A DNA stretch of 64,000 nt from Sinomonas atrocyanea (GTDB lineage: Bacteria; Actinomycetota; Actinomycetes; Actinomycetales; Micrococcaceae): contig NZ_JAUSTE010000007.1 of the NCBI RefSeq assembly GCF_030812675.1, forward strand, positions 1-64,000. Reading direction: 5' to 3'. The translations under genes and the position numbers were made by a program. Positions 55,728-58,494 of the stretch are shown one piece after another. Numbering within the stretch: the first letter of the stretch is position 1; each line of letters begins with the position of its first letter. The notes below the pieces were generated by a model. It did not search any database. It was given only the letters and a program-made list of their open reading frames with translations, and was not told where the DNA came from.

Positions 55728-56555
55728 ATGACTCATCCTCAGTCACCCGAGCAGCCGTCGGCCCAGGGCTCGCACCCGCAGACCGGATCCGCGCCGCTTG
55801 GCGAGCCGGGATCGGGCGCTGCCGACGGCCGGCCCTACCCGCAGCCATATGGCCACCAGGGCCAGCCGTATCCGCCGTATGGCCAGCAGGGCCAGCCGTA
55901 CCCGCCCCAGGGCCAGCCCTACGGCCAGCCGTACCCGCCCCAGGGCCAGCCCTACGGCCAGCCGTACCCGCAGCCGAGCAAGACGCTGGCGATCATCTCG
56001 ATCGTGGCGGGCGGCCTCGCCGTGCTCTTCAGCCTCATTCCGTTGCTCGCCTGGCCGCTGGCCGCGGCGGCGATCGTGTGCGGGATCATCGCGCTCGTGA
56101 AAAAGGGCGGCGGAAGGGGCCTGTCGATTGCCGGCATCATCCTCGGAGGGGTGGGTACGGTCATCGCGCTGATCGTCTTCATCGTCGCGATGGCCTTTGT
56201 GTCGTCTGTGGAGAAGACCTCCGGCAAGAGCCTCGGCGAGCTCCAGTCCTCGCTTGCTTCGGCGAGCGCCGCGGCCAACGCCGAGCACACGATCCAGTAC
56301 AAGGTCACGACCAATGGCAAGGCCAAGGTCAGCTACTCGGATGCCGCGGGCACGAGCGACGAGGACATCGCCGCGCCGTGGACCAAGGACTACAAGGACA
56401 GCGGTTTCGTGCTCGCCTCGGTCTCGGTGATGGCCGACGGCGATGCCGACACCGCACAGGTGGCGTGCGAGATCCTCATCGACGGCAAGACCGTCTCGAA
56501 GAAGAGCGACGCGGGGGCCTACGCTTCCGCCTACTGCTCCGGCAGCGCACGCTGA
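55728..56555 (+). CDS. DUF4190-type membrane protein with Pro/Gln/Tyr repeat N-terminus
   Basis: A 275-residue protein. Residues 25-82 are repeats of the type GQPYPP/GQPYGQ, a flexible cytoplasmic segment. Two membrane helices follow (AIISIVAGGLAVLFSLIPLL and LSIAGIILGGVGTVIALIVF regions) joined by an IVCGIIALVKKGGGRG turn typical of DUF4190. The last 115 residues form an extracytoplasmic beta-rich domain (IQYKVTTNGKAKVSYSDAAG) resembling MmpS-like accessory domains. The tandem repeats are also visible at DNA level (two CCCCAGGGCCAGCCCTACGG copies near 55906-55960). Function unknown. Confidence 0.78.
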   Translation: MTHPQSPEQPSAQGSHPQTGSAPLGEPGSGAADGRPYPQPYGHQGQPYPPYGQQGQPYPPQGQPYGQPYPPQGQPYGQPYPQPSKTLAIISIVAGGLAVLFSLIPLLAWPLAAAAIVCGIIALVKKGGGRGLSIAGIILGGVGTVIALIVFIVAMAFVSSVEKTSGKSLGELQSSLASASAAANAEHTIQYKVTTNGKAKVSYSDAAGTSDEDIAAPWTKDYKDSGFVLASVSVMADGDADTAQVACEILIDGKTVSKKSDAGAYASAYCSGSAR

Positions 56556-56818
56556 CCACCTGCGCTGCCCGCCCCCGGCTGCTGTCCGGCGGGCGGGCGG
56601 CGCCCCGGTAGACTTGCACCGGCAGACTCGAGCCGGCGGGCCACGCGCAGGACGCATGGACGTAACCCCGGCGAAACCAGGACATGCCACGGTGGGGCGC
56701 AGCTGCTGTACGGCGCGTCACACTCGGTCACCGACAAGGCGACCCAGGAGTAACCGGCCAGCATGGACATGGAGTGCGGCATGGGCTCCGCCGGAAACGC
56801 AAGGAACAAGGGGAAGCA

Positions 56819-57646
56819 ATGGCGAGGAACGCGAACGCGGCAGAGAAGCTCGACCTCCGTCTCAAGGCGGTGCTGGACGGGCTGGCGGAGGCGGCATTCA
56901 CTGATCAGACGGCCGACGCCCGCGAGGTCCTGACCGCGGCGGTCGCGGCAGTGCCGTTCGACGAGCACGAGGCGACCCTTCTCTCCGGCGGCATCCCGCG
57001 CGGCCACAAGGCGCTCACCACCGCCACGGCCAAGCTCGTCAAGGCCGGCTGGATGGTCAAGGGACGCAGCGGCTGGGCGATCACCGAGGACGGCCTCCGC
57101 GCCACGGTCGCCTTCCCGACGGCGCAGGCCCTCGCGGCCGCGCTCGCGGACGGCACGCCGGTGCCTGCCGACACCCCGGTCCCTGCTGCCTCCGCGAAGA
57201 AGAAGCCGGCCCGCAAGGCGGCCGCCAAGAAGGCGCCCGTGGCGAAGAAGGCCGCCGCCGAGGAGGAGCTGGCTGCGCCCGTGGCCGAGGCCACCGTCCC
57301 CACCGAGGCCGAGGCGGCCGCCGACGAGCCGCTCGTCGTCGACCTCGATCAGCCGGAGTCCGTGGCCATCGCCGGCGACTTCGCCTCCCACCTGGGCGCC
57401 CCCGCCGACTGGGAGCCCAGCGCGGACGCCGTGCAGATGGGCCTCGACGCGGCCTCCCGCCGCTGGGTTCGCACCGTGGACCTCCCGGCGGGCCACTACG
57501 CCTTCAAGATCGCGATCAACCGCTCCTGGGACGAGAACTACGGAGCGTTCGGCGCCTTCGACGGCCCCAACCACGAGCTGACGCACGACGGCGGCCCGGT
57601 CACCATCGCGTACGACCACGCCACCAAGGACATCGCCTACTCCTGA
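56819..57646 (+). CDS. Mosaic protein: winged-helix-like, Lys/Ala-rich linker, X25-like module
   Basis: The product is 275 residues. Residues 1-105 look like a small winged helix (ALTTATAKLVKAGWMVKGRSGWAITEDGLRATVAF). Residues 120-150 are Lys/Ala/Pro-rich (KKKPARKAAAKKAPVAKKAA), like histone H1 or DNA-compacting tails. Residues 175-275 (VAIAGDFASHLGAPADWEPSA, WVRTVDLPAGHYAFKIAINR, NYGAFGAFDGPNHELTHDGG) match the X25 module found in pullulanases, here without any glycosidase domain. I know of no established function for this combination. The 263-bp gap before it holds no recognised feature. Confidence 0.75.
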   Translation: MARNANAAEKLDLRLKAVLDGLAEAAFTDQTADAREVLTAAVAAVPFDEHEATLLSGGIPRGHKALTTATAKLVKAGWMVKGRSGWAITEDGLRATVAFPTAQALAAALADGTPVPADTPVPAASAKKKPARKAAAKKAPVAKKAAAEEELAAPVAEATVPTEAEAAADEPLVVDLDQPESVAIAGDFASHLGAPADWEPSADAVQMGLDAASRRWVRTVDLPAGHYAFKIAINRSWDENYGAFGAFDGPNHELTHDGGPVTIAYDHATKDIAYS

Positions 57647-57680: not shown

Positions 57681-57750
57681 GAGGCGGGGATTGTCGGCGG
57701 CCTCCCGTACGGTGGAACAGTCATGTCAACCACCGGCGGGGGGGCCGTCC

Positions 57751-58494
57751 ATGCTTCAGCGTTCATCCCGGCGCCTCCCGCGCCGCGGACAGCGTTCCAG
57801 GACCGTGGGCGTGGTGGCCGCCGGGACCTTCTTGGCGGCGGCGCTCGGCTGGTTCGCCGGCTTCCTCCAGATCCCCGGCTTCGAATCCCCGCTGACGGCC
57901 CAGACGCAGATCGGCGGGGTCCCCGCTGCGCAGCTTTCGGCGGCGAAGGCCTCGCTCGCAACGATCCCCGTAAGGGGGCGCGCGCCGAAGACCGGGTACA
58001 GCCGGACGGAGTTCGGCCAGGCGTGGTCGGACACCGACCACAACGGCTGCGACACCCGCAACGACATCCTCGCGCGCGATCTCCGCGGCCCCGCGTTCAA
58101 GGCGGGGACGCGGGACTGCGTGGTCCTCTCAGGCAGCCTCGAGGACCCCTATACCGGCAGCACGATCGCGTTTCAGCGCGGCGAGCGGTCGGCGGACGTC
58201 CAGATCGACCACCTCGTGCCCCTCTCGGACGCGTGGCAGAAGGGCGCGCAGCAGTGGACGCCGCAGAAGCGCCTCGGCTTCGCCAACGATCCGGCCAACC
58301 TGCGTGCGGTGGACGGCCCGGCGAACCAGCAGAAGAGCGACGGCGACCTCGCCACGTGGCTGCCGCCGAACCGGTCATTCCGCTGCGAGTACGCGGTGAA
58401 TGTCGTGGAGGTCAAGGCCGGCTACGGACTGTGGATGACCCAGGCCGAGCATGACAAGGCCGCGGAGCTGCTCGGTGCCTGCCGGGCCGAGTGA
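57751..58494 (+). CDS. Secreted or membrane-anchored HNH-family endonuclease
   Basis: About 247 residues from ATG 57751 with an N-terminal basic stretch and a hydrophobic segment (TVGVVAAGTFLAAALGWFAGF, residues 18-38). The nuclease region carries DTDHNGCDTRN (94-104), QIDHLVPLSDAW (151-162) and FANDPANL (177-184). This is the GmrSD C-terminal/DUF1524-like HNH arrangement found in many exported actinobacterial nucleases. Cys100 and Cys123 could form a disulfide. Non-specific extracellular nuclease activity is inferred. Confidence 0.84.
   Translation: MLQRSSRRLPRRGQRSRTVGVVAAGTFLAAALGWFAGFLQIPGFESPLTAQTQIGGVPAAQLSAAKASLATIPVRGRAPKTGYSRTEFGQAWSDTDHNGCDTRNDILARDLRGPAFKAGTRDCVVLSGSLEDPYTGSTIAFQRGERSADVQIDHLVPLSDAWQKGAQQWTPQKRLGFANDPANLRAVDGPANQQKSDGDLATWLPPNRSFRCEYAVNVVEVKAGYGLWMTQAEHDKAAELLGACRAE

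Follow-up and report, generated by a model that had tools for sequence, protein, structure and literature searches.

Bacterial glycogen metabolism is controlled, among others, by allosteric effectors of ADP-glucose synthesis, by cAMP and ppGpp, and by CsrA. Intracellular reading of glucans is known from AMPK beta and SEX4/DSP4, in which the glucan-binding domain is attached to a kinase or a phosphatase, and in the plant proteins BAM7 and BAM8 a DNA-binding domain of the BZR1 type is reportedly fused to one resembling beta-amylase. The carbohydrate-binding X25 modules of the Bacillus acidopullulyticus pullulanase (2wan) and of Ruminococcus bromii Sca5 (Sca5X25-2, 7rpy) are extracellular, where they form part of enzymes or scaffolds and, in Sca5, stand in tandem. 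According to the excerpts of PMC9112005, the residues of Sca5X25-2 that hold maltotriose are W509, W620, K654, and W661 together with side chains of Asn, while Sas20 no longer binds once W481, the counterpart of Sca5 W661, is lost. The protein described here (hereafter the fusion) has 275 residues; its N-terminal winged helix is of the Mrr_N type, its C-terminal part is an X25 module, and the two are joined by a disordered linker rich in Ala, Lys, Pro, and Glu. It shares sequence family and fold with the modules of 2wan and 7rpy, and the W/K/W sugar-contact positions with Sca5, but its module is single and most probably cytoplasmic, and among these modules it alone sits on a DNA-binding-type domain. 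BAM7 and BAM8 come nearest to it as an idea, since a DNA-binding and a starch-recognition domain are combined in them as well, although the domains are unrelated and the proteins eukaryotic. Each of the domains of the fusion is known by itself; the combination of a DNA-binding-type domain with X25 was not found described in the open-access literature, among the matches listed.

The gene was found in the window (i.e., the whole stretch of DNA of the soil bacterium Sinomonas atrocyanea that was analyzed, 64,000 nucleotides), where its ATG is preceded by a Shine-Dalgarno-like AAGGGGAAGCA, with similar pre-start sequences in close relatives (Table 1). The AlphaFold model, based on an alignment of 65 sequences, was confident over most of residues 5–120 and 178–275, with secondary structure at 7–111 and 182–274; its poor spots were the loop 241–246 and the linker (pLDDT about 40), and with a pTM of 0.52 the mutual placement of winged helix and X25 is undefined. 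Hydropathy gave no segment resembling a signal peptide (19-residue maximum 0.51 among windows starting before residue 25), and the Pfam scan returned no catalytic domain, neither nuclease nor ATPase, in line with the preliminary description, which had stated that signal peptide and catalytic domain are absent; the signal peptide and GH13 domain that characterize secreted X25 amylases and pullulanases are missing from the protein. Matches to SAMP2, DUF3306, and Rv3852 fell below cut-off, on or beside the low-complexity linker, and were discarded. An identical domain arrangement was present in 113 distinct aligned sequences, which excludes a frameshift confined to a single assembly, and the proposed combination of a DNA-binding-type N-terminus with X25 was confirmed by Pfam, the fold models, and these 113 sequences. 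In architecture, a winged helix plus a separate ligand-binding-type domain is what a one-component regulator is made of, and a regulator of this kind, sensing cytoplasmic alpha-glucan, is in our view the most likely reading, with about an even chance of being right; the parts of it that we infer are DNA binding, glucan binding, recognition of the repeat upstream of its own gene, and a regulatory output.

Table 1. Features of the fusion gene and its upstream region (feature; coordinates in the window; strand; basis or remark)
Tandem repeat GTCACACTCGGTCAC, candidate operator	56717..56731	+	first base 102 bp upstream of start
Whole CDS	56819..57646	+	275 residues plus stop; frame open
Mrr_N-type winged-helix domain, residues 7–111	56837..57151	+	two models; Mrr_N matches; hhalign
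Presumed recognition helix, residues 61–75 (R61, K64, T67)	56999..57043	+	AlphaFold helix; putative DNA contact
Beta wing, residues 79–88 (K81, R83)	57053..57082	+	AlphaFold strands; putative DNA contact
Disordered Ala/Lys/Pro/Glu-rich linker, residues 119–174	57173..57340	+	pLDDT <50 over 128–174 bar single residues
Lys/Ala-rich stretch, residues 127–144	57197..57250	+	translation; charge not conserved
X25 starch-binding-type module, residues 178–275	57350..57643	+	PF22058 profile and fold
W198, aligned with Sca5 W620 (maltotriose contact)	57410..57412	+	113/113
K230, aligned with Sca5 K654 (maltotriose contact)	57506..57508	+	113/113
W237, aligned with Sca5 W661	57527..57529	+	113/113

At least 107 relatives were found, 80 loci of which were taken for comparison, and in 79 of these the reading frame is complete. 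L034, cut by a contig end, was excluded from the alignments and included in the conservation count of 113 sequences. Redundancy-reduced alignments contained 64 of the 79 whole relatives (A1) or 42 (A2 and A3).

The recognition helix and the wing are the usual DNA-touching parts of winged helices, and here the residues they present are strongly conserved, both on the presumed helix (R61 in 113/113, K64 in 112/113, T67 in 110/113 sequences) and on the wing (K81 in 113/113, R83 in 111/113). Because the conserved R61, K64, K81, and R83 occupy these positions, the N-terminal domain is likely to bind DNA, and the DNA-binding-like character ascribed to it earlier gains support from these residues and from the winged helix present in two models. 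By itself, fold comparison says only "winged helix", a common arrangement (Z about 6.4–8.3 against solved winged helices, none outstanding); Foldseek with the N-domain alone gave no match at E ≤ 0.001, and a PDB sequence search with it gave a single chance-level match (E 0.26). Kinship in sequence is firmer. Mrr_N (PF14338) scored 16.7 bits over the whole window protein and 19.1 as a domain, below the curated cut-off of 29.5, and was matched at E ≤ 0.1 by 42 of 43 members scanned singly (best E 1.5e−6). The family profile, run over loci L081 to L159, recognized the N-terminal parts of four proteins: the Mrr endonuclease L096 (46.6 bits), L153 and L154 (36.5 and 30.4 bits), which are McrB-like AAA proteins of Micrococcaceae, and L098 (15.6 bits), which is likewise Mrr-like, the domains of L096, L153, and L154 being taken from Pfam and the identity of L098 and the name McrB assigned by eye. 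Aligned by hhalign with a profile of these four proteins, the family reached a probability of 99.0% (E 2.4e−18, 105 columns), by which measure the N-domain is homologous to Mrr/McrB N-termini. Other matches were set aside: L155 (18.7 bits with the family profile, by eye resembling a LysR-type regulator) and L122 (26.8 bits, a 217-residue frame) carry no weight, and L097, which together with the Mrr-like L096 and L098 made up the three N-part matches outside the family in the whole-protein search, is by eye a dehydratase-like frame missed by the family profile and was taken as chance.

Beyond its own family, the N-domain is most closely related to those of an Mrr endonuclease and of McrB-like ATPases, Mrr and McrB being type IV restriction enzymes. 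The fusion might therefore be related to defence, with an Mrr_N-type domain that reads modified DNA and an X25 that serves, for instance, to sense glucosylated phage DNA. This we consider very improbable: the nuclease and AAA+ ATPase domains are absent (Mrr_cat, by which Mrr restriction endonucleases are recognized, is present in L096 and not in the fusion), the single padloc match was weak (TRIP13, 17.5 bits), the fusion modules fall on one side of a branch in the X25 tree, genera that carry the gene retain it steadily, and no relative was confirmed in viral contigs.

The linker varies from 32 to 98 residues in length and from −17 to +16 in net charge (median +6, 65 members), and at least three basic/Ala-Pro units were counted in that of 45 of the 65 members. 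An H1-like Lys/Ala tail had been proposed for the protein; the stretch itself exists in the window protein, but it is not conserved, and a conserved basic Lys/Ala tail, as expected of a linker histone, is not found across the 65 members. Because the linker varies and is acidic in some of them, the likeness to H1 is a loose resemblance and not the defining part of the family. The winged helix and Lys/Ala tail of the window protein are what it has in common with linker histone H1, and the former is a likeness of fold only (6hq1, Z 6.4). The same layout, together with a linker that is long, flexible, and in many members basic, would suit an adaptor between DNA and glycogen that has little sequence preference and either anchors glycogen granules at the nucleoid or maintains order between the two. 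Copies of X25 gathered on DNA could in addition provide avidity for a polymer with many ends, and E. coli glycogen condensates displace nucleoids, as stated in the excerpts of PMC12706056, so that glycogen and nucleoid do influence one another. We nevertheless regard an adaptor as unlikely, given the unconserved charge of the linker, an N-domain whose net charge (−5 to +2, median −2) is unlike that of a bulk nucleoid protein, and a conserved, near-unique repeat upstream of the gene that favours specific DNA recognition by some protein.

Sensing of glucan by the preferred regulator would depend on the C-terminal module. That this part folds like X25 had been set beforehand as a point on which the preliminary description could fail, and the fold is indeed that of X25: a scan of the whole protein gave X25_BaPul_like (PF22058) at residues 182–271 with 73.3 bits (curated cut-off 27), and the predicted model aligned with 2wan at Z 13.7 and 1.7 Å over 91 residues. 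Further fold matches were the N-domain of Amy703 (8jn0, Z 10.8), Sca5X25-2 (7rpy, Z 9.7), SusF (4fe9, Z 8.5), and SusE (Z 7.9), and the glucan-binding domains of AMPK beta and SEX4/DSP4, whose partners are other than a DNA-binding-type domain, showed a weak profile kinship in the K/W stretch (E 0.002–0.26). The correspondence with Sca5 was obtained from a profile of 28 X25 modules that matched 7rpy (E 1.9e−5), the names W620, K654, and W661 being given to the aligned 7rpy residues by their spacing of 41 and 7. The counterparts of W198, K230, and W237 are also unchanged in all 28 modules of alignment A4, and the fusion X25 accordingly is a putative alpha-glucan binder, with no evident counterpart in the alignment for the Sca5 Asn contacts N684 and N687. 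In the excerpts of PMC9112005, single lobes from Sca5X25-2 bind neither maltotriose nor maltoheptaose, the tandem pair being needed, although for SusF a single module suffices, with binding at about 300 μM. Since both single Sca5X25-2 lobes failed to bind sugar, a lone X25 may, by analogy, need a partner or avidity. Beside the sugar site, AFG (residues 243–245, 57545–57553) is invariant and NHE (residues 251–253, 57569–57577) nearly invariant in fusions, and both differ in enzyme-borne modules. As these motifs are specific to the fusions, their ligand preference may differ. Taken further, the same motifs, together with the failure to bind that PMC9112005 describes for isolated single modules, could point to a regulator whose X25 no longer binds sugar and is used for dimerization or for binding a partner. 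The retention of W198, K230, and W237 in every sequence speaks against this, as loss of function would normally have freed these residues, and we find such a loss quite unlikely.

Enzyme-borne and fusion modules also differ in their cysteines. Two Cys flank the sugar-contact Trp in all 22 enzyme-borne X25 modules (near-full-length, from frames of at least 527 residues), mostly as C-x-x-D-W-x-P-x-C, whereas this pair occurs in none of 35 fusion modules, two of which have one Cys; these numbers remained after matches covering fewer than 81 profile positions and identical copies had been dropped. Secretion was checked for the amylase of the own genome and is presumed for the other large X25 frames. 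The pair presumably forms a disulfide, and its absence from the fusions suggests a cytoplasmic module, as would be expected there. The Bacillus module of 2wan likewise lacks it in the alignment. Whole fusion proteins were Cys-free in 78 of 79 cases. Cytoplasmic residence, which had been proposed from the missing signal peptide, is thereby supported from several sides, i.e., no segment like a signal peptide, no Cys pair, and hardly any Cys at all. In a tree of 66 X25 modules, 62 of them different, which was built from few columns and rooted at its midpoint, one branch with support 100/93 separates the fusion from the enzyme-borne modules. The window genome itself encodes a GH13 alpha-amylase (L107, contig C15, 2405–5635, − strand) with three tandem X25 modules, each with the Cys pair, and a signal-peptide-like N-terminus (by eye and hydropathy), in which Pfam also found weak CBM_20 and AMPK1_CBM matches. 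This amylase shares organism and module family with the fusion, but the fusion has neither its signal-peptide-like N-terminus, its GH13 domain, nor its Cys pairs, and the modules of the two lie across the 100/93 branch from each other. A secreted and a cytoplasm-kept carbohydrate module may thus be told apart in sequence by the missing Cys pair.

The N-domain profile had matches in 49 of 149 Micrococcaceae genomes. All 48 strong matches, in 47 genomes, had X25 in the same frame (48/48 by row comparison of N-domain and X25 matches, 35 of them read directly), and the three weak ones were the two McrB-like frames L153 and L154 and L155. In this 149-genome sample the fusion is therefore obligate, and it is a conserved Micrococcaceae family, present in 10 of 32 genera. 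A second X25 gene was present in 15 of the 47 fusion genomes and absent in 32, i.e., the fusion is kept without secreted X25 enzymes. In wider draws, PF22058 occurred across the phylum in 14 of 396 genomes, with the fusions of the window genome and of one other (G008) as the only frames below 500 residues; an earlier draw with the whole protein had matches in 14 of 296 genomes and the full fusion in the same two; and an order-wide N-domain draw matched 12 of 248 genomes, 11 of them Micrococcaceae and the last being the weak L122. Genome G312 holds two copies of the fusion on different contigs (C10 and C14; L159 and L139), one of them diverged. Among plasmids, an Arthrobacter replicon of 1.35 Mb gave one match, which was split, and in four records the match covered the X25 part only. 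Six pairs formed by the window gene and its Sinomonas relatives had dN/dS values of 0.08–0.21 for the N-domain, 0.06–0.18 for X25, and 0.09–0.56 for the linker, by which estimate both domains are under purifying selection.

A link to glycogen was also sought in gene content and neighborhood. Both glgC (E ≤ 1e−30) and GlgE (PF11896, E ≤ 1e−10) were found in each of the 47 fusion genomes, vs. 61 and 55, respectively, of the 102 fusion-free genomes. At the genome level the co-occurrence is strong (Fisher 7e−9 and 4e−10), the genomes being kin, and at the genus level it is weak (one-sided chance 0.13 and 0.03). It is consistent with a glycogen link and weakly informative; as proof, the phylogenetic profile was rejected, since kinship confounds the counts by genome and the genus figures are weak. 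A glycogen operon was rejected as well, with no glycogen gene conserved beside the fusion in 80 loci. The commonest neighbors were an adenosine deaminase upstream (at least 48/80 loci) and an acylphosphatase downstream (at least 31/80), one member of each being confirmed by Pfam, and a GH13-like gene (labeled by eye) lay within 5 kb of the fusion in at least 15/80; these counts stem from a crude gene caller and are low estimates, some loci being cut by contig ends. In the window, the next gene downstream (57691–58494, + strand) encodes a GmrSD_C/HNH-type nuclease according to Pfam, with an N-terminal segment that is hydrophobic by eye, and is perhaps exported or membrane-anchored; a look-alike (by eye) follows the fusion directly in 9/80 loci. 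The upstream gene (55728–56555, + strand) has a Pro/Gln/Gly/Tyr-rich N-terminus and matches Mycobact_memb above and DUF4190 below cut-off.

A tandem GTCAC repeat precedes the gene. Of 78 relatives, 64 carry GTCACANTNGGTCAC with up to two mismatches 87–115 bp upstream (perfectly in 17, with one mismatch in 29, and with two in 18) and 14 do not, and no other place with up to one mismatch occurred in the 813,880 bp of the same loci. Across the genome (4.12 Mb), the copy in the window is the sole perfect one; two other places differ from the motif by one mismatch, and the backwards control had no match. When 12 further genomes were scanned with a longer pattern, one mismatch being allowed, 9 of them gave 13 matches in total, nine of these matches just upstream of the fusion gene (one per genome, by coordinates) and four elsewhere, against three for the backwards control. 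The one-mismatch sites of the own genome, on C4 and C14, gave no pointer to a regulon, and no repeat with up to one mismatch lies near its glgC (C12) or GlgE (C3), so that no regulon is shown. Further conserved blocks follow downstream of the repeat, GAGTAAC in Sinomonas (56748–56754 in the window) and GTTAAC in Arthrobacter, followed by a TTGGCAAAATGC-like block; in Arthrobacter loci such blocks lie about 45 bp upstream of the start, and they are possibly the core promoter.

We regard the repeat as a candidate for either an autoregulatory operator or an MtrA-type box. The excerpts of PMC13189361 give the MtrA box as a direct repeat of GTCACAgcg in mycobacteria and as GtnAcC-n5-GTnAcn in Streptomyces, and the first repeat here, GTCACA, equals the first six bases of the mycobacterial motif (PMC2945938 and PMC13189361, both in excerpt). 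MtrA could accordingly control the gene in response to stress or growth phase, while the encoded protein acts elsewhere. For that, one perfect and two one-mismatch sites in 4.12 Mb are few beside the about 420 potential mycobacterial targets named in the excerpts of PMC2945938, and the period is 10 bp as compared with 11 bp in the excerpted Streptomyces consensus, with the proviso that degenerate MtrA sites would escape the pattern used. An MtrA box is a real possibility, although with clearly less than an even chance, and as it concerns the upstream repeat only, it is compatible with every other reading of the protein.

In the regulator that we favour, the Mrr_N-type winged helix would bind double-stranded DNA, and X25, free of the actinobacterial Cys pair, would bind alpha-1,4-glucan chains of cytoplasmic glycogen or of long maltodextrin, with a flexible linker of 32–98 residues that would permit both heads to bind simultaneously. 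The protein would sit on DNA, with the tandem GTCAC repeat of its own promoter as one probable site, and glycogen chains on X25 would alter its DNA occupancy or placement, by which route glycogen load could feed into transcription. That it reads the glycogen polymer itself, with X25-bound chains switching or relocating the winged helix on DNA, is a tentative proposal whose chances we put a little short of even. If true, the size of the carbon store would be sensed as a macromolecule and not via a small metabolite, and the fusion would be, among the literature searched, the first bacterial protein whose carbohydrate-binding module, of a type borne by secreted starch enzymes, operates in the cytoplasm and is coupled to DNA recognition. 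A protein that binds glycogen and DNA at once would link the polymer store directly to gene expression or to the position of the nucleoid.
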